Part shown: one piece after another, positions 189 to 31,907 of the stretch
Layout: every line of letters begins with the position of its first letter
Numbering within the stretch: position 1 is the first letter of the stretch
NCBI RefSeq assembly: GCF_020400725.1
Contig: NZ_JAINVG010000003.1
Coordinates: 62,001 to 126,000, forward strand
DNA from: Streptomyces sp. NK15101
GTDB taxonomy: Bacteria; Actinomycetota; Actinomycetes; Streptomycetales; Streptomycetaceae
Direction: 5' to 3'
DNA length: 64,000 nt
Made by a program: the position numbers and the translations under genes
The notes under the pieces: generated by a model
What the model was told of the DNA's origin: nothing
Database searches by the model: none
Seen by the model: only the letters and a program-made list of their open reading frames with translations

Positions 189-923
189 ATGAACACGAAC
201 ACGCACGCCCCCCGGATCGCCCTGGTCGGCGACCGCTCCCCGCACGTCCGCTCCCACGTCCGGATCCCGGTCCTCCTGGACGCCCTCGCCGAGCGGGACG
301 GGCTCGCGCTCGACGCGTACTGGATCCCCACGGGCGACGCGGAGGCCCCCGGCGCCGTGAAGGGCTTCGACGCGGTGTGGGTGCTGCCGGGCAGCCCGTA
401 CGCGAGCGAGGCGGGGGCTCTCGCGGCGATCCGTACGGCCCGCGAGGACGGCATCCCCTTCCTCGGCACCTGCGCCGGCTTCCAGCACGCCCTGATCGAG
501 TACGCGCGGGACGTCTGCGGCCTGGAGCGGGCGGCGCACGCCGAGAACGACCCGGCGGCCGATCCGGGCGACCTGCTGATCGCACCGCTCGCCTGCTCGC
601 TGGTGGGCCACGAGGGCGTCGTACGGATCACCCCCGGCTCGCTCGCCGAGAAGGCGCTCGGCGCGGAGCGGACGACGGAGCGGTACCACTGCAACTACGG
701 CCCGGACAGCCGCCACCTGGACACCCTGCGGGCGCACGGCCTGCGCTTCACCGGCGCGGACGAGGAGGGCGGCATCCGCATCGCCGAACTCCCCTCGCAC
801 CCCTTCTTCCTGGCGACCCTCTTCCAGCCGGAACTGGCGGGCGACGGCACCGTTCCGCACCCGCTGGTCCGGGCGCTCGCGGTGGCGGCGGCGGAGCACG
901 CGTCGGCCGGATCCGCCGGCTGA
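189..923 (+). CDS. CTP-synthase C-terminal-like class I glutamine amidotransferase domain protein
   Basis: The protein has about 244 residues and looks like a stand-alone class I glutamine amidotransferase fold related to the C-terminal half of CTP synthase. The nucleophile elbow is seen as FLGTCAGFQHALIEYARDV, and a late His-Pro-Phe-Phe followed by LFQPEL matches the catalytic His/Glu region of the fold. There is no synthetase domain. The frame stays open upstream to about position 30, but that part lies antisense to the preceding gene, so I start at ATG 189; ATG 180 is in frame and equally possible, with no clear ribosome-binding site for either. The substrate is unknown; a partner synthetase elsewhere or a degenerate role are both possible. 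Confidence 0.85.
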   Translation: MNTNTHAPRIALVGDRSPHVRSHVRIPVLLDALAERDGLALDAYWIPTGDAEAPGAVKGFDAVWVLPGSPYASEAGALAAIRTAREDGIPFLGTCAGFQHALIEYARDVCGLERAAHAENDPAADPGDLLIAPLACSLVGHEGVVRITPGSLAEKALGAERTTERYHCNYGPDSRHLDTLRAHGLRFTGADEEGGIRIAELPSHPFFLATLFQPELAGDGTVPHPLVRALAVAAAEHASAGSAG

Positions 924-23792: not shown

Positions 23793-25220
23793 ATGACGGA
23801 ACTCGGCATCGGCATCGGCTGGCGTCCCGAGATCGCGGACGCGGTGGAGGCGCTGCCCGGCGTCGACTGGGTGGAGGTCGTCGCGGAGAACATCTGCGCG
23901 GACCATCTGCCCGACTCCCTGACCCGGCTGCGCGAGCGCGGCGTGACGGTCGTGCCGCACGGCGTCTCGCTGGGGCTCGGCGGCGCGGACCGGCCGGACC
24001 CGGCGCGGCTCGCGGCGCTCGGCGAGAAGGCTGTGGCCCTGGGGGCGCCGCTGGTCACGGAGCACATCGCGTTCGTACGCGCCGGGGGGCCGCTCACCGC
24101 GACCCCGCTGCTCGAAGCGGGCCACCTGCTGCCCGTGCCCCGCACGCGGGACGCCCTCGACGTGCTCTGCGAGAACGTGCGCATCGCGCAGGACGCGCTG
24201 CCCGTGCCGCTCGCCCTGGAGAACATCGCGGCCCTGATCGCCTGGCCGGGCGAGGAGATGACGGAGGGGCAGTTCCTGGCGGAGCTGGTGGAGCGTACGG
24301 GGGTGCGGCTCCTCGTCGACGTCGCCAACCTGCACACGAACCACGTCAACCGGGGTGAGGACCCGGCGCGGGCCCTGTCCGAGCTGCCGGTCGAGGCGAT
24401 CGCGTACGTGCACGTGGCGGGCGGTGTCGAGCGGGACGGCGTCTGGCACGACACCCACGCCCACCCGGTGCCCCCCGCCGTCCTCGACATCCTGGCGGAC
24501 CTCGCCTCCCGGGTGTCCCCGCCGGGGGTGCTCCTGGAAAGGGACGACGACTTCCCGCCGGCGGAGGAGCTGGCGGAGGAGCTGAAGGCGATCGCCGCCG
24601 TGGGCACGCGTTCCGCCGGGGCGGAGGGGGTCCCCCCGGACGAAGTCCGGGGGAAGGCGGGCACACCCCGCCGGCACGGCGCCCGGCCGCTGATACCCGC
24701 ACCCCGACGGGCCCCGCTCCTGATCGGCGCGGGCGCCCGGGCCTCGGGCGGCCCGATGCCGGTCGTCGCCCCCGCCGGACAGGAGGCGCCGGAGCCGCCC
24801 GCACCGCGCGAAGCCGCGCGCCAGCGCCTGGCCGTGACCCAGGCCGCCCTCCTCTCCGCGCTCGTCGCCGGCACCCCCGTCCCCGAGGGCTTCGACACCC
24901 GCCGGGTCGGGGTCCAGAGCCGCGCCCTCGCGGCCAAGCGGGCCGGGGTCGTCGCGAAGGTCGCGCCGGAGCTGCCGGAGATCCTCGGCAAGGGCTTCCG
25001 GCCCGCGTTCCTCGCGTACGCCCGGTCCCGTCCCATGACCGGTGGCTACCGCCGGGACGCGCTCGACTTCGTCGAGCACCTGCTGCTCGCCGGCCGGCCG
25101 GAGGACCCGGCGGCACGGCGGCGGCTCACCGAGTGGTGGCAGGACCGTTCCGGCAGCCGCCCGCCGGGCCGCGCCACCCGGCTCGTCCGGGCCGCCCGCC
25201 ACGCCCTCGTACGGAGATGA
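23793..25220 (+). CDS. DUF692 (MbnB/TglH-type) multinuclear iron enzyme fused to a C-terminal partner-like domain
   Basis: A 475-residue protein. Residues 1-265 form a DUF692 TIM barrel with the metal ligands of the family in place: H56 (VVPHGVSLG), H91 (TEHIAF), E143 (LALENIA), D176/N179/H181 ([11 protein letters not shown]), H207 (YVHVAGG), D220/H222 (WHDTHAH) and E249 (LLERDD). Characterised relatives (MbnB, TglH, ChrH) are iron enzymes that rework cysteines of peptides held by a partner protein. After a Pro/Ala-rich linker, residues about 335-450 form a helical domain ([34 protein letters not shown]) like the C terminus of SCO6045. Start ATG 23793 has AAGGAGGGGG. The stop overlaps the next ATG (ATGA), so translation is coupled to the Cys-tailed membrane protein. 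Confidence 0.9.
24633..24653 (+). repeat. Palindromic repeat inside the DUF692 linker coding sequence
   Basis: A 9-bp perfect stem, CCCCCGGAC (24633-24641) and GTCCGGGGG (24645-24653), with loop GAA, flanked by GGGGGT and AAGGCGGG. The layout resembles the palindrome in the 2579-2784 element (GTCTCCCC..GAACGAAG..GGGGAAGG). It encodes part of the non-conserved linker ([13 protein letters not shown]), consistent with a repeat landing in a tolerant spot. Confidence 0.45.
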
Positions 25221-26248
25221 CCGTGAACTTCCTCCTCGTCCTGATCTACATCGCGGGCGCCGTCGGCATCGCCCTCGTCATCACCCGGGTCGTCCGGACG
25301 CGCGGCGGTCCCGGCGGTCCCGTCCACGACCGGTACGAGGTCGCCTTCCTCAACGGCGGCCCGGCCCGCGTCGTCGACACCGCCCTCGCGGCCCTCCAGG
25401 CGGACGGCAGGATCGCGATCGGCGGCCCGGGCATCGTCGCGGTCGTCCGCCCCACCGCGTACGACCCGGTGGAGCGCGCCGTCCTCCAGGAGCACGCCGC
25501 CGCCCCGCACGGCGCCCTGCACCATCTGCGCCTCGGCGTGATGCGCCACCCGGCGGTCCAGGAGATCGGCGACGGCCTCGCGGCGCGCGGGCTGATCGTC
25601 GATCCGGCGACGCGGCGGACCACGGCCCGCTGGTGCGGCGCCCTCGTCATCACGGCCTTCGCGCTGTTCCCGTTGTCGATCGTCCTCACGGTGATCGACT
25701 TCTCCACCGACACGGGGTTCCGGCTGCCGTTCGTCTTCAAGGTGGCGCCGGTCCTGTTCGCCGCGCTGATCACCGGCATCGTCTGCGGGTCGGTCTCCGC
25801 CCGGCAGGTCACCCCGGCCGGCCGCCGTGCGGTCTTCGCGTACGGGCGGGCGCACGGTCGTCCCGCCGACGCCGGGCACCTCGTGGCCCTGCACGGGCTG
25901 CGGGCCGTGCCGGACCCGGTGCTCCGGGAGCAGCTCGTCGCCGCCGCCCGTTTCCACGCGCCGCCGCGGCGGAACCAGCGCGGCCGGAGGCACTCCCCGT
26001 CGCACTTCTCGTCCTCGGACGCGGCCGCGTTCGGAGTGGCGGCCGAGTGGTGCGCGACCAACAGCTCCTGCGGAGGAGGAGGCTCCTGCTCGGGCGGTGG
26101 CGCCTCCTGCTCGTCCGGGTCCTGCTCCTCGGGCTCGTCCTGCTCCTCGGGCTCGTCCTGCTCCGGCGGCAGTTCCTGCTCCAGCTCCAGCAGCTCGTGT
26201 TCGAGTTCGAGTTCCAGCTCGTGCTCCAGCTCAAGCTCCAGCGGCTGA
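25217..26248 (+). CDS. TIGR04222 membrane protein with Ser/Cys/Gly-rich tail (candidate DUF692 substrate)
   Basis: A 343-residue protein: membrane helix at 4-22, a TIGR04222-type domain ([18 protein letters not shown] at 40-57, [15 protein letters not shown]-like region), two further membrane segments (about 138-158 and 168-190), a basic stretch, then a tail from C279 to the end. The 65-residue tail has ten cysteines, almost all in Ser-Ser-Cys or Gly-Ser-Cys context, spaced 4-7 residues apart; the rest is Ser, Gly and a few Ala/Thr/Asn. The tail codes serine with five different codons, including the rare AGT and TCA. The ATG overlaps the DUF692 stop. I infer that the tail is the peptide modified by the DUF692 enzyme; a metal-binding or disulfide tail are alternatives. 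Confidence 0.85.
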
Positions 26249-26296
26249 GCGGCCATCCGGGTGGCGGGCCCGTCCGTCCTCCCGTACAACCGGGAC

Positions 26297-27022
26297 ATGC
26301 TCTGGGTTCCGCTCCTCCTCGTGGCGTTCACGGCCGCCGGCATCGGCTGCGCGCGGGTCTGCCGTGCCTCGCTCGCCACCGCCCGGCCCGACGGGACGCC
26401 CGGGGGCACGGACGAGCTCACCCTCCGCGAGGCGGCCTACCTCGCCGGGGGGCCGCTGCGGGTCACCGACCTGACCCTGGTGTCGATGCACCGGACGAGG
26501 CGGGTGCTGCTCGCCCGCACCGGCTGGGCGACGGTCGTGGACGCCACGGGTGACGGAGACCCGATCGAGCGCGCGGTGCTCGGTGCGATCGGGCCCGTCG
26601 GGCAGTCGCCGATCCCCGCCGTCCGTCCGGTGGTCGCCGCCGCCGAGCCCGTACGGCGCCTCGCGGACGGCCTCGTCGAGCGGGGCCTCGCCGTGTCCGA
26701 GGAAGGGCGCCGGGAGCTCGCCGCCGGGGTGCGCGCCGTGCGGACGGGGTTCCTGCTGACCCTGGCGCTCGGGACGGTCGCGGCGCTCCTGGTGCCGGCG
26801 GGCGAACGGGCCCCGGTCCTCGCCGGTTTCGCGCTGCCGCTGGTCGGGTCGGGGCTCTGCCTGCTGATCGGGCGCACCGAGGTGTACCCGTACACCCGAT
26901 GGGCGTCCCCGGCCGGGCAGCGGCTGCTCTCCGGGCTGTCGCCGGCCGATCCGCTGACGGCCCTCGCGACGCGCGGTCCCTCCGTACTGGAGCCGGAACT
27001 CCGCGCGGCCCTGAAGTCCTGA
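26297..27022 (+). CDS. TIGR04222 paralog without the Cys tail
   Basis: A 241-residue membrane protein similar to the preceding one: EAAYLAGGPLRVTDLTLVSM aligns with [20 protein letters not shown], and DPIERAVLGAIGP with [13 protein letters not shown]. An N-terminal helix (LWVPLLLVAFTAAGIGCARV) and two central helices (GFLLTLALGTVAALLVPAG and APVLAGFALPLVGSGLCLLI) are present. It ends at PELRAALKS with no Ser/Cys tail. Start ATG 26297 is chosen at the hydrophobic N terminus; an in-frame GTG at 26261 would add 12 residues. It lies 48 bp after the tailed gene and probably shares its transcript, perhaps as a hetero-oligomer partner. Confidence 0.8.
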   Translation: MLWVPLLLVAFTAAGIGCARVCRASLATARPDGTPGGTDELTLREAAYLAGGPLRVTDLTLVSMHRTRRVLLARTGWATVVDATGDGDPIERAVLGAIGPVGQSPIPAVRPVVAAAEPVRRLADGLVERGLAVSEEGRRELAAGVRAVRTGFLLTLALGTVAALLVPAGERAPVLAGFALPLVGSGLCLLIGRTEVYPYTRWASPAGQRLLSGLSPADPLTALATRGPSVLEPELRAALKS

Positions 27023-27193: not shown

Positions 27194-27907
27194 TCAGGCC
27201 AGGCCCGCCACCAGGTCGGCGACGCTCTTGCGGCGACCGGTGAAGAACGGGACCTCCTCGCGGACGTGCATCCGCGCCTCGGAGGCGCGCAGGTGGCGCA
27301 TGAGGTCGACGATGCGGTGCAGCTCGTCGGCCTCGAAGGCGAGGAGCCACTCGTAGTCGCCGAGCGAGAAGGAGGCGACCGTGTTGGCGCGGACGTCGGG
27401 GTAGCCGCGGGCCATCTTGCCGTGGTCGGCGAGCATGCGGCGGCGGTCCTCGTCCGGCAGCAGGTACCAGTCGTAGGAGCGCACGAAGGGGTACACCGAG
27501 ACGTAGTCGCGCGGGTTCTCGTCGGCCAGGAAGGCCGGGATGTGCGACTTGTTGAACTCGGCGGGGCGGTGCAGCGCCATGTTCGACCAGACCGGCTCCA
27601 GGGCGCGCCCCAGCTTGGTGCGGCGGAAGAGGTTGTACGCCTCCTGGAGCTCGTCGCTCGTCTCGGCGTGCCACCAGATCATGACGTCGGCGTCGGCGCG
27701 CAGACCGGAGAGGTCGTACGTGCCGCGGATCGTGATGTCCTTGGCCGCGAGCTGGTCGAACAGCTCCTGGACCTCGTCGGCGTAACCGCCGCGGTCCTCG
27801 GGGAGAACGTCGCGCAGCTTGAAGACGGACCACAGGGTGTAGCGGATGACCTCGTTGAGGTCCTTCGCCTTCTTACCGGCGTTCGGGATCTTTTCGGGCG
27901 CACTCAT
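27194..27907 (-). CDS. hemQ: Hydrogen-peroxide-dependent haem synthase (coprohaem decarboxylase)
   Basis: A 237-residue HemQ/ChdC of the chlorite dismutase family, which converts coprohaem III to haem b by two oxidative decarboxylations in Gram-positive bacteria. Family landmarks are [47 protein letters not shown] and [20 protein letters not shown]; the Tyr in the YPFVRSYDW region corresponds to the radical-forming tyrosine site and the His in LADHGKM to the proximal-side region. Start ATG 27907. The hemG gene lies 17 bp upstream on the same strand, giving a haem operon. Confidence 0.93.
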
Positions 27908-27924
27908 ACGCCTATTCTCGCCCG

Positions 27925-29388
27925 TCACGAGGAGTGCCCCGCACCGGGGTGCCCCGTTCCCGACGTGGCGATGATCTCGTCGGCCGCGCGGTGGGCCGAG
28001 GCGATGCAGGCGGGGATGCCGACTCCGTCGTACGCGGCGCCCGCGAGCCGCAGTCCGGGGAGGGCGGCGACGGCCGCGCGGACGCGGGCGACGCGGGCGA
28101 GGTGGCCGACCGGGTACTGGGGCAGGCCGCCGGTCCAGCGGGTGACCGTGCTCGCGACCGGGCGGGCGGAGAGGCCGGTGGCGGCGGCGAGGTCCTTGAG
28201 GGAGGCGTCGACGAGGTCGGAGTCCTCGCGGTGGACCTGGGCCTCCTCGCCGTGGCGGCCGACGGAGGTGCGCAGCACGAACAGGTCGGGGGCGCTGTCG
28301 GAGACCCACCGCCACTTCCGGCCGGAGAACGTGGAGGCCTTGATGGTGTGGCCGTCGACGGGCGGCACGAGGAAACCGGAGCCTTCCAGGGCGGGCACGT
28401 CGGAGCGGCGGAAGGCGAGGGTGATCAGGGCCATGGAGGCGTAGTCGATCGCGTCGAGCTCGGCGGCGGCGGCCGGGGCGTGCCCGCCGAGGAGTCCGGC
28501 GGCGGTGCCGGCGGGGGTGGCGAGGACGACGGCGTCGGCGTCGAAGGTCCGGTGCGGGGTCACGACCCGCCAGCCGGTGGCGCCGGTGCGGACCAGCGCG
28601 TCCACGGGGGTCCCGGTGAGGATCTCGCCGCCGGCGGCGCGGATCGCGTCGGCGACCGCGCCGGGGAGGGTGCCGATGCCGCCCTCGATGCCGAGGAAGG
28701 CCGCGCCGCCCAGGCCGGTGGCGGCGCCCGCCGCGTCGGTGGGGGTGGCGGCGCCGGCCCGCTGGACGGCGTGGACGGCGGCGGTGAGCGTGGGGTGGGC
28801 GCGGGCGGCCTCGAAGAGGGCGGGGACGGCTGCCTTCATCGAGATGCGGTGGGCGTCACCGGCGTACACCCCGCCGAGGAGGGGTTCGACGAGCCGGTCC
28901 ACGACCTCGTGGCCCATGCGCGCGGCGACGTACGCGCCGATGGCGATGTCCTCGCCGATCTCGGTCGGCGGCAGCTCCAGGTCGCCGCCGATGCGGCGCA
29001 CGCCCTCCGCGGAGAGGAGCCCCTCGACGGCGGCGGGGTCGCCGGGGACGCCCATGACGTGCCCCTTGGGCATGGGGACCAGCTCGCCCCGGGACCAGAC
29101 GGACGCGGTGGTCGTCGCGGGGGCCTGGAGCCGGTCGCCGAGGCCGACGGCCCGGGCGAGGGCGACGGCCTCGGGGCGGCGGGCGAGCAGGGACTCGGCG
29201 CCGAGGTCGACGGGCGCGCCCGCGATCTCCCCGGCGAGGAGCTTGCCGCCGAGCCGGCCGTCCGCTTCGAGGAGGGTCACCCGGTGGCCGGCGAGGGCCA
29301 GTCGGTGGGCGGCCGCGAGGCCGGCGATCCCGCCTCCGGCGACGACGGCGTGAGGCCCTGCGTGGTGTCCCGTGGTGTCCGCGTTCAT
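27925..29388 (-). CDS. hemG: Coproporphyrinogen/protoporphyrinogen III oxidase (HemY/CgoX type)
   Basis: A 487-residue FAD enzyme of the HemY class. The dinucleotide motif [17 protein letters not shown] is near the N terminus and [11 protein letters not shown] follows; the C-terminal [20 protein letters not shown] is the second FAD motif. In actinobacteria this enzyme oxidises coproporphyrinogen III to coproporphyrin III, upstream of ferrochelatase and HemQ, and the adjacent hemQ supports that route. The symbol hemG follows actinobacterial annotation habit; cgoX or hemY are equivalent. Start ATG 29388 with GAGAGAG upstream. Confidence 0.93.
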
Positions 29389-29527
29389 GGCACCACTCTC
29401 TCAAATCGCCCGCCCGCTCCCGTTCCGAGGCCGGACCGTGACCGCATCGCTACCGCCGGAGGGCAACCCGCCCCGAGGGCTCGTACGTCCAAGGGGCATC
29501 ACTCGTCACCACCCTGGGGGGATCCTC

Positions 29528-30523
29528 GTGCGGGCAGCAAGAACGAGAACGACGGCCGCGGTCCTGCTGGCGGCCTCATTGGCCCTGGCCGGCTGCGGCG
29601 CGGGCGCCACGGACACGGGCGCGGACGCCAAGGGGGGCGCGGCGGCGGCGAAGCCCGCCGACAGGGGCGCCGCGGACGGCTCGGCGGCCGAGGGCGGCGC
29701 GGGAGCCGCCGGGAAGCCCGCCCCGAAGACGCCGGCCCGGCAGCACGTCATCCGGACCGCCGAGCTCTCCGTGGAGGTGAAGGACGCGGCGAAGGCCCTG
29801 GCCGCGGCCCGCCGGGTGGCGACGGACGTGGGCGGGCGCGTGGAGAGCGAGTCGACGGAGCGCGTCGACGACGCGCGCCTCACCTCGCGGGTCGTGCTGC
29901 GGGTGCCGCAGGAGCGGTACGACTCCGTCCTCACCGAGCTCGCGGGCACCGGGAAGCTCCTCGACCGCAAGGCGGAAGCCAAGGACGTCACCGACCAGGT
30001 GGTGGACGTGGAGAGCCGGATCGCCACCCAGCGGGCGAGCGTGGCGCGGGTGCGGGCCCTGATGGACCGGGCGGAGAAGCTGTCCGACGTGGTGACCCTG
30101 GAGGGCGAGCTGAGTCGCCGTCAGGCGGACCTGGAGGCGCTGCTCGCCCAGCGGGCCTCGCTGAGCGACCGGACGACGATGGCGACGATCACCCTGTGGC
30201 TCTCCGAGGAGGAGAAGCCGTCGGCACGGGAGCGGGAGGAGGGCCGCCCCGGCTTCGGGGACGCCCTGAGCGGCGGCTGGGACGCGCTGGTGGGCTCGGC
30301 GGCCTGGATCGGGATCGTCCTGACCGCCCTCGCCCCGTGGCTCGCGGTCGCCCTGGTCCTCTTCGTCCTGTGGCGCCGTCTGGTCCGCCCGCGCCTCGCG
30401 GCCCGTCCCCGGCCGGAGGCCCCCGCCCCCACCCTGCCGGACACCCCTCGGAACGCCGCCGGAGCCGCCGTGGCCCCCGGGGCGCCGAAGCCCCCGCGGC
30501 CCCGGGAGGACCCCGAGAAGTAG
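29528..30523 (+). CDS. DUF4349 lipoprotein
   Basis: A 331-residue lipoprotein with lipobox LALAGC, an Ala/Gly/Lys-rich linker, and a DUF4349 domain: QHVIRTAELSVEVKDAAKAL, VPQERYDSVLTELAGTGKLL, coiled-coil KDVTDQVVDVESRIATQRAS through LSRRQADLEALLAQRASL, and TITLWLSEE. A single membrane helix (VGSAAWIGIVLTALAPWLAVALVLFVLW) follows, with a Pro-rich cytoplasmic tail. Function is unknown; it probably spans the membrane with the domain outside. Start GTG 29528 has GGGGGG about eight bases upstream. The oxidoreductase gene starts 10 bp later. Confidence 0.88.
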   Translation: MRAARTRTTAAVLLAASLALAGCGAGATDTGADAKGGAAAAKPADRGAADGSAAEGGAGAAGKPAPKTPARQHVIRTAELSVEVKDAAKALAAARRVATDVGGRVESESTERVDDARLTSRVVLRVPQERYDSVLTELAGTGKLLDRKAEAKDVTDQVVDVESRIATQRASVARVRALMDRAEKLSDVVTLEGELSRRQADLEALLAQRASLSDRTTMATITLWLSEEEKPSAREREEGRPGFGDALSGGWDALVGSAAWIGIVLTALAPWLAVALVLFVLWRRLVRPRLAARPRPEAPAPTLPDTPRNAAGAAVAPGAPKPPRPREDPEK

Positions 30524-30533
30524 CGTCTCCCCC

Positions 30534-31907
30534 ATGAGCGAACGACTGGTGGTCATCGGTGGCGACGCGGCGGGCATGTCCGCCGCGTCGCAGGCGCGCA
30601 GGCTCAGGTCTCCCGGGGAGCTGGAGATCGTCGCCTTCGAACGCGGGCGCTTCTCCTCGTACTCGGCATGCGGCATCCCGTACTGGGTCGGCGGGGACGT
30701 GGCCGAGCGGGGGGAGCTGGTCGCGCGCTCCCCCGAGGAGCACCGGGCCCGTGACATCGGCCTGCGGACGCGGACCGAGGTGACGGAGATCGACGTCGCG
30801 GGGCAGCGGGTCCGCGCGCGGGACCTGGAGGCGGGCACGGAGGCCTGGACGGGCTTCGACAAGCTGGTGATCGCGACCGGGGCCCGGCCGCTGCGCCCGC
30901 CGCTGCCCGGGATCGACGCGCCCGGGGTGCACGGGGTGCAGACCCTCGACGACGGCCAGGCGCTGATCGACTCGCTGTCCGCGACGCCGGGGCGGCGGGC
31001 GGTCGTCGTGGGCGCCGGGTACATCGGGGTGGAGATGGCGGAGGCCCTGCTGAGGCGGGGCTACGAGGTGACGGTGCTGACCCGGGGCGAGCAGCCGATG
31101 GCGACCCTCGACCCGGACATGGGGCGGCTCGTGCACCGGGCGATGGACGGTCTCGGCATCAGGACGGTCGTCTCGGCGCCGGTGACGAAGGTCCTGACGG
31201 GTCCGGACGGCCGGGTGCGGGCGGTGGCGACGGAGGCGGACGAGTACCCGGCGGACGTGGTGGTGCTCGGCACGGGCGTGGAGCCGGAGACCTCGCTCGC
31301 GCGGGCGGCGGGGCTGCCCCTCGGGGCGTACGGCGGGCTGCTCACCGATCTGTCGATGCGGGTCCGGGGCCACGGGAACATCTGGGCCGGCGGCGACTGC
31401 GTGGAGGTGCTGGACCTGGTCTCGGGCCGGGAGCGGCACGTGGCGCTCGGCACGCACGCGAACAAGCACGGTCAGGTGATCGGCGCCAACGTGGGCGGCG
31501 GTTACGCGACCTTCCCGGGTGTCGTGGGCACCGCGGTGTCGAAGGTGTGCGACCTGGAGATCGCGCGGACGGGCCTGCGGGAGAAGGACGCCCGGGAGGT
31601 GGGCCTGCGGTTCGTGGCGGTGACGGTCGAGTCGACGAGCCGGGCGGGCTACTACCCGGGGGCCGCGCCGATGACGGTGAAGATGCTGGCCGAGCGGCGC
31701 ACGGGCCGGCTGCTCGGGGTGCAGATCGTGGGCCGGGAGGGCGCGGCGAAGCGGGTGGACGTCGCGGCGGTGGCGCTCACGGCGGGGATGACGGTGGAGG
31801 CGATGACGGCCCTGGACCTGGGGTACGCGCCGCCGTTCTCGCCGGTGTGGGACCCGGTGCTGATCGCGGCGCGGAAGGCGTCGGCGGCCGTTCGGGCGGC
31901 GGGCTGA
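30534..31907 (+). CDS. CoA-disulfide-reductase-like FAD/NAD(P)-dependent oxidoreductase
   Basis: A 457-residue pyridine nucleotide-disulfide oxidoreductase. The FAD motif VVIGGDAAGMSAASQ is at 6-20 and the single redox cysteine is C46 in SYSACGIPYW, the arrangement of CoA-disulfide reductases and NADH oxidases. The NAD motif VVVGAGYIGVEMAE and the second FAD strand NIWAGGDCVEV are clear, and the dimerisation domain ends with YAPPFSPVWDPVLIA, which is typical. It could reduce CoA disulfide or related persulfides. It follows the DUF4349 gene closely. Confidence 0.88.
   Translation: MSERLVVIGGDAAGMSAASQARRLRSPGELEIVAFERGRFSSYSACGIPYWVGGDVAERGELVARSPEEHRARDIGLRTRTEVTEIDVAGQRVRARDLEAGTEAWTGFDKLVIATGARPLRPPLPGIDAPGVHGVQTLDDGQALIDSLSATPGRRAVVVGAGYIGVEMAEALLRRGYEVTVLTRGEQPMATLDPDMGRLVHRAMDGLGIRTVVSAPVTKVLTGPDGRVRAVATEADEYPADVVVLGTGVEPETSLARAAGLPLGAYGGLLTDLSMRVRGHGNIWAGGDCVEVLDLVSGRERHVALGTHANKHGQVIGANVGGGYATFPGVVGTAVSKVCDLEIARTGLREKDAREVGLRFVAVTVESTSRAGYYPGAAPMTVKMLAERRTGRLLGVQIVGREGAAKRVDVAAVALTAGMTVEAMTALDLGYAPPFSPVWDPVLIAARKASAAVRAAG

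Follow-up and report, generated by a model that had tools for sequence, protein, structure and literature searches.

The closest described relatives of the system considered here are pairs of an MNIO (DUF692) enzyme and a TIGR04222 membrane protein. Antoine et al. 2025 (PMC12452194) describe TIGR04222 proteins with Ser/Gly/Cys tails as putative MNIO substrates that are often, but not always, encoded beside the MNIO; PME-type 2 genes are reported there for 10% or more of these clusters, and many clusters appear without a partner gene. We analyzed one such pair, encoded by a three-gene locus at positions 23793 to 27022 of a 64,000-nucleotide stretch of Streptomyces sp. NK15101 DNA (contig NZ_JAINVG010000003.1, positions 62,001 to 126,000; hereafter the window). 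The pairing, the C-terminal Ser/Gly/Cys tail, and the substrate proposal are the same here as in the published pairs, and because the link of DUF692 to TIGR04222 and the proposal of a substrate role have both been published on computational grounds, the core finding is not new. The additions are a partner built into the enzyme, a tail that likely faces inward, and a second, smaller tailed membrane protein. Whereas in the account of Antoine et al. the partner often appears to be missing and the tails are periplasmic, all 47 TIGR04222-linked MNIOs that we tabulated have a partner domain, the tails look cytoplasmic, and some tails are carried on a single helix. None of the titles and abstracts of the literature matches listed reported experimental work on a DUF692-TIGR04222 system.

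Other MNIO systems share parts of this arrangement. In HvfBC, captophorins, and bufferins, an MNIO and a partner likewise act on repeated cysteines, and there the products bind copper (PMC13097082, PMC13419390). Their precursors carry Sec signal peptides, whereas by charge counts the first helix of the tailed TIGR04222 protein, with an uncharged N-terminal end and a basic C-terminal flank, looks unlike one. The partners there are of the DUF2063 type, and captophorins have GKC-type motifs, whereas most tail cysteines here come directly after Ser or Gly. MovX and ChrH are MNIOs with an extra domain, which in MovX is a fused C-terminal recognition element (RRE) for ribosomally synthesized and post-translationally modified peptides (RiPPs) (PMC13419390). 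In contrast, the extension found here is a helical domain whose best matches are MNIO partners.

The MNIO gene begins with the ATG at 23793, and its stop codon (25218 to 25220) is overlapped, as ATGA, by the start codon at 25217 of the gene for the tailed TIGR04222 protein. A TIGR04222 paralog without a tail follows, from the ATG at 26297 to 27022. A first-pass annotation of this DNA had pointed to the ATGA coupling of the DUF692 and TIGR04222 genes, to ten cysteines in the last 65 residues of the membrane protein, and to the tail-less paralog next to it; the sequence and the family matches (PF05114, E = 2e-78; TIGR04222, E = 2.9e-45) bear this out. With modest confidence, we favor the reading that a fused MNIO-partner enzyme modifies cysteines in a tail that is tethered to the membrane and faces the cytosol, with metal handling as the probable purpose.

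The enzyme matches the whole PF05114 domain at 263.7 bits (cut-off, 25). For comparison, the loci of its best 80 relatives, all from Streptomyces, were fetched, and 71 were usable after 9 at contig ends or with damage were set aside. All 80 MNIOs encoded in tailed loci share eight invariant residues (H56, H91, E143, D176, H207, D220, H222, and E249). These are the putative metal ligands, and it is through their conservation that the full ligand set claimed in the first-pass annotation finds support.

The protein continues for about 200 residues beyond PF05114, a feature absent from the first-pass annotation, and this extension has no Pfam or NCBIfam match. Of the 80 Streptomyces loci, 79 carry its last ~130 residues in frame with the MNIO, and the remaining one (L105) runs off its contig. 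Searches with this segment (phmmer and hmmsearch) retrieved homologous separate open reading frames (ORFs) adjoining MNIO genes in other genera, and the alignment of 41 members has five invariant columns. In a class-wide sample of 296 genomes, 75 MNIO matches were tabulated (three G468:C116 pieces were merged, one G521 fragment was omitted, and partner status is assigned to all but 9). Linkage was scored within 5 kb, and 47 of the 75 lie within that distance of a TIGR04222 match. The partner domain of these 47 is fused in 28 and is a neighboring ORF in 19 (in one, L183, weakly matched); the fused form accounts for 20 of the 21 Streptomyces loci and 8 of the 26 others.

An AlphaFold model of the domain, built from 26 Streptomyces sequences (pLDDT 83.5), is one helical domain. 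The top three of 125 PDB chains compared with it by VIA-align were 8hi7_A (Z = 6.1), 8hci_A (Z = 5.8), and 7dz9_C (Z = 5.0), values that, according to the tool's own warning, can arise by chance for helical folds. The first two belong to TglHI entries and the third to an MbnABC entry; since DUF692 in the TglHI entries is a longer chain of 304 residues, 8hi7_A and 8hci_A (268 to 269 residues) are taken to be the partner TglI, and 7dz9_C is taken to be MbnC. TglI and MbnC supply the top structural matches of the domain, which like them adjoins an MNIO; it differs in that Z is only 5 to 6 and in being one helical domain fused to the enzyme. The weakness of the structural match counts against a partner identity: Foldseek with the same model gave nothing significant (E above 1), and a sequence search of the PDB returned two chance-level matches only. 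We read these ~130 residues as an MNIO partner domain on the combined indications of homology, position, and fold. A single polypeptide would then join MNIO and partner; homology and adjacency are evident from the sequences, and they suggest the function. Like PME-type 2 proteins, the domain is encoded with an MNIO and has no Pfam DUF2063 signature, and DUF2063 was not among the seven families matched by the 41 members at E up to 1. The fused domain lacks the DUF2063 (PME-type 1) signature of bufferin and captophorin partners. An artificial fusion of the MNIO HvfB to its partner HvfC is highly active, and HvfB installs copper-binding 5-thiooxazoles (PMC13419390); Streptomyces seems to hold a natural counterpart of this laboratory construct. 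The linker between MNIO and partner contains, at about 24615 to 24660, a GC-rich palindrome encoding 14 residues, with one occurrence in the window and two among the loci compared.

The tailed protein (343 residues) and the paralog match TIGR04222 at 154.7 and 116 bits, respectively (cut-off, 43). Hydropathy predicts helices at residues 5 to 23, 142 to 160, and 172 to 190 of the tailed protein, and its AlphaFold model has a mean pLDDT of 79.7, with the tail mostly under 50. Besides its cysteines, the tail contains 38 Ser and 13 Gly, and the first Cys sits in an EWCA motif. A tailed gene lies downstream of the MNIO in 46 of the 71 usable Streptomyces loci, and all 56 distinct tailed proteins from Streptomyces have a WC motif at the tail. 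Across 81 MNIO-linked tails, the number of cysteines in Ser/Gly surroundings is 3 to 10 (median, 7), and 303 of 441 Cys spacings are 5 to 8 residues. The residue preceding each of 579 cysteines in the last 130 residues is Ser in 313 cases, Gly in 173, and Trp in 57. One tailed gene, in L067, passes near its 3' end (6503) into foreign-looking sequence at a contig end, which by eye is probably an assembly or adaptor artifact.

The Cys tail is associated with the MNIO. The best 104 TIGR04222 matches of a longer table were taken, and 102 proteins were read. The survey proposed in the first-pass annotation, of how often a DUF692 gene adjoins tailed and tail-less TIGR04222 genes, came out positive: an MNIO lies within 5 kb of 37 of 45 tailed genes versus 18 of 57 others. 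Comparison of Gly/Ser ends used 100 proteins after removal of L213, whose 3' frame is spurious, and L206, which is truncated at the end of its contig; L202, whose contig edge cuts the start of an MNIO, was scored as adjacent. Among proteins with such ends, 37 of 41 Cys-rich versus 0 of 12 Cys-poor proteins were MNIO adjacent (Fisher p = 7e-9, uncorrected for kinship and inflated because the genomes are related). The genomes of the four Cys-rich exceptions have an MNIO elsewhere. Many MNIO-distant TIGR04222 proteins also have Gly-rich tails, which frequently contain Asp but little or no Cys, and the MNIO-adjacent tailed proteins span nine family codes.

Other results set limits on this association. 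A TIGR04222 tree (86 rows, E up to 1e-12, L213 omitted) offered four phylogenetically independent pairs on well-supported branches, too few for significance. Fisher tests restricted to strong TIGR04222 matches were not significant at E < 1e-20 (counts 33, 5, 17, and 8; p = 0.11) or E < 1e-30 (23, 4, 16, and 3; p = 1.0), because the Streptomyces tail-less paralogs also adjoin MNIOs; the comparison confined to Gly/Ser ends is the sharper one. One MNIO-adjacent TIGR04222 protein (G451, L192) has an end with Gly or Ser at 17 of 40 positions and no Cys, just outside the 0-of-12 count.

The tail is not confined to TIGR04222 proteins. Six MNIO-partner loci without a TIGR04222 match carry an ORF of 83 to 119 residues with one hydrophobic helix, a basic stretch, and a Gly/His/Cys tail, with 3 to 9 cysteines per whole protein. 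Five of these loci (L234, L237, L240, L241, and L242) belong to one family code and L244 to another. NCBIfam gave no match for these proteins, and Pfam gave two weak ones below the cut-off. They may correspond to the "adjamnio-V" group that Antoine et al. mention, whose very small members are encoded behind MNIO genes (PMC12452194). A Cys-tailed membrane protein thus adjoins 31 of 36 non-Streptomyces MNIO-partner loci, 25 with TIGR04222 and 6 with a single helix, the other five being L192, L238, L239, L243, and L250. Beside MNIO loci without a partner, such a protein was found in 0 of 5 (L105, cut by its contig, and L085 excluded) by a scan that recovers 78 of 80 known tailed loci.

It is possible, although we consider it unlikely, that the real MNIO substrate is something else, either the paralog's CxxxC motif or a protein encoded outside the locus, and that the Cys tail is an unmodified thiol buffer for metal or redox, co-inherited by happenstance. 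In 21 of the 71 usable Streptomyces loci, the MNIO and the tail-less TIGR04222 gene are kept while the tailed gene is absent, and 4 more have the MNIO without either TIGR04222 gene. With the class sample included, the eight conserved MNIO residues are retained in 32 of 32 Streptomyces loci with only the tail-less gene and in 9 of 9 with neither gene. Median pairwise dN/dS of the MNIO is 0.132 and 0.207 in these two groups versus 0.173 in tailed loci, which indicates purifying selection. In a deeper search of 15 genomes lacking the tailed gene, a second TIGR04222 gene was read in four, each with at most 1 Cys per 50 tail residues; two further matches were weak. No Gly/Ser/Cys-tailed ORF was found near tail-less loci at the set thresholds, and the gene lists there hold other Cys-bearing proteins. 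The Streptomyces tail-less MNIO-linked paralogs form one clade (17 rows, SH-aLRT 100), and CxxxC stands at the end of helix 1 in 62 of 69 of them versus 0 of 79 tailed proteins scored. Because the MNIO stays intact and constrained without the tailed gene, it must have a role besides, or instead of, tail modification. Tail modification as the sole activity is therefore weakened, and of the first-pass claim that the tail is the substrate, the pairing of tail and DUF692 stands, while the tail as only substrate is doubtful. However, outside Streptomyces only two tail-less TIGR04222 genes adjoin an MNIO (in G399, beside a tailed one, and in G451), whereas Cys tails adjoin most MNIO-partner loci there, and the absence of Cys-poor Gly/Ser ends beside MNIOs also argues for the tail.

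Another possibility is that the MNIO modifies the tail before insertion and that the tail is then exported to act outside the cytoplasm like a bufferin, as published. We regard this as improbable. A periplasmic location is given, from predicted topology, in PMC12452194, and 7 of 23 scorable non-Streptomyces tailed proteins misfit the charge rule for an inside tail, with 7 more unscorable. However, in the Streptomyces tailed proteins the flanks behind helix 1 and ahead of helix 2 each have 3.14 Lys and Arg per 15 residues and the flank behind helix 3 has 3.39, against 0.35 in the stretch that joins helices 2 and 3. This pattern, with the N terminus outside and the C terminus inside, holds in 56 of 56 Streptomyces proteins and 16 of the 23 others. 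All six single-helix proteins are strongly basic between helix and tail, and none has more than one basic residue ahead of the helix. The soluble loop also has a weak resemblance to the cytosolic GPP34/GOLPH3 fold. The charges suggest that the tail is likely cytoplasmic, contrary to PMC12452194 and to the first-pass annotation, whose cell-surface array is weakened by these counts. A chance origin of the tailed arrangement can be dismissed because so many Streptomyces loci share the tailed gene and all of their tails share the WC motif.

The loop resemblance (window positions 25217 to 25965) was seen with the TIGR04222 model, for which VIA gave GOLPH3/Vps74 rows at Z = 6.9 to 8.0 over residues ~34 to 247, the other rows being mostly generic helix bundles and ExbB/TolQ-like proteins. 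Profile comparison (hhalign) with bacterial GPP34 gave E = 2.5e-5, but a probability of 75% over 76 columns, and Pfam searches of family members gave weak DUF2207_C, GPP34, and HTH matches. The resemblance is a weak lead rather than membership.

On the reading that we favor, modification of a cytosol-facing tail, the three-helix protein made from the overlapping gene would sit in the plasma membrane with its N terminus outside and, judging by its charges, its Cys tail in the cytoplasm. The soluble enzyme would oxidize the tail cysteines there, with no export needed, probably to 5-thiooxazole- or oxazolone-type groups by analogy with characterized MNIOs. The product would stay tethered at the inner membrane face and would most likely bind or buffer a thiophilic metal such as copper, the weakest step of the scheme. 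The anchor would be exchangeable, with the single-helix protein carrying the tail in other actinobacteria, and the tail-less paralog, with its CxxxC at the inner membrane edge, would probably be an accessory or a second target. As a tentative generalization, MNIO-modified proteins that are retained and at no stage released may form a class that is widespread in actinobacteria: cytoplasmic-face Cys arrays on interchangeable anchors (either three-helix TIGR04222 proteins whose loop is GPP34-like or no more than a single helix), served by a dedicated MNIO-partner enzyme that is one fused chain in most Streptomyces. Coordinates are given in Table 1.

Table 1. Features of the three-gene locus (window positions) and single-helix tail carriers (locus positions)
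Feature	Location	Strand	Evidence
MNIO (DUF692, PF05114) with C-terminal partner-like domain	23793..25220	+	Pfam E 2e-78, conserved residues
MNIO catalytic domain	residues 5-270 = 23805-24602	+	PF05114
Fused MNIO-partner-like helical domain	24828..25217, residues ~346-475	+	phmmer/hmmsearch, alignment, AlphaFold, VIA-align
TIGR04222 three-helix membrane protein with Cys tail	25217..26248	+	NCBIfam E 2.9e-45, hydropathy, AlphaFold
Ser/Gly/Cys tail, last 65 residues, 10 Cys	26051..26245	+	
Tail-less TIGR04222 paralog, GCARVC (CxxxC) at end of first helix	26297..27022	+	NCBIfam E 2e-33
Single-helix Gly/His/Cys-tailed ORFs	L234:5316-5579, L237:4223-4471, L240:4142-4453		
Single-helix Gly/His/Cys-tailed ORFs	L241:2603-2899, L242:5313-5669, L244:3711-3980		

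Downstream of the three genes, on the opposite strand, Pfam and NCBIfam identify HemQ and protoporphyrinogen oxidase. The segment from 27194 to 31907 encodes HemQ, protoporphyrinogen oxidase, a DUF4349 protein, and a CoA-disulfide-reductase-like protein, in the order of SCO6042 to SCO6039. The MNIO gene of S. coelicolor may be SCO6045, to judge by its position. SCO6045 is induced 3-fold under H2O2 in an HbpS-SenS-SenR-dependent manner, together with cysteine biosynthesis genes (PMC4991794). SCO6041, which has a bound OsdR site upstream, is described as a protoporphyrinogen oxidase and SCO6042 as a protein of the chlorite dismutase type (PMC5069765), annotations that agree with the window's downstream genes. 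The genome that contains the window also encodes a second, different MNIO (G000:C201:4994-5722, L247), without a partner domain and with no Cys tail found nearby, and a third TIGR04222 gene (G000:C156:63653-64297, L113), which lacks a Cys tail and is not within 5 kb of an MNIO match.

The fused and neighboring partner domains would bear on a question raised by PMC12452194, namely how an MNIO linked to TIGR04222 could work when no partner gene is obvious. If the proposed function is correct, natural MNIO-partner fusions would avoid the weak-complex problem behind the artificial fusion (PMC13419390). MNIOs would modify membrane proteins in place and not only exported peptides, which would widen the concept of a RiPP-like product, and the inner side of the Streptomyces membrane would gain a layer for metal or redox handling.

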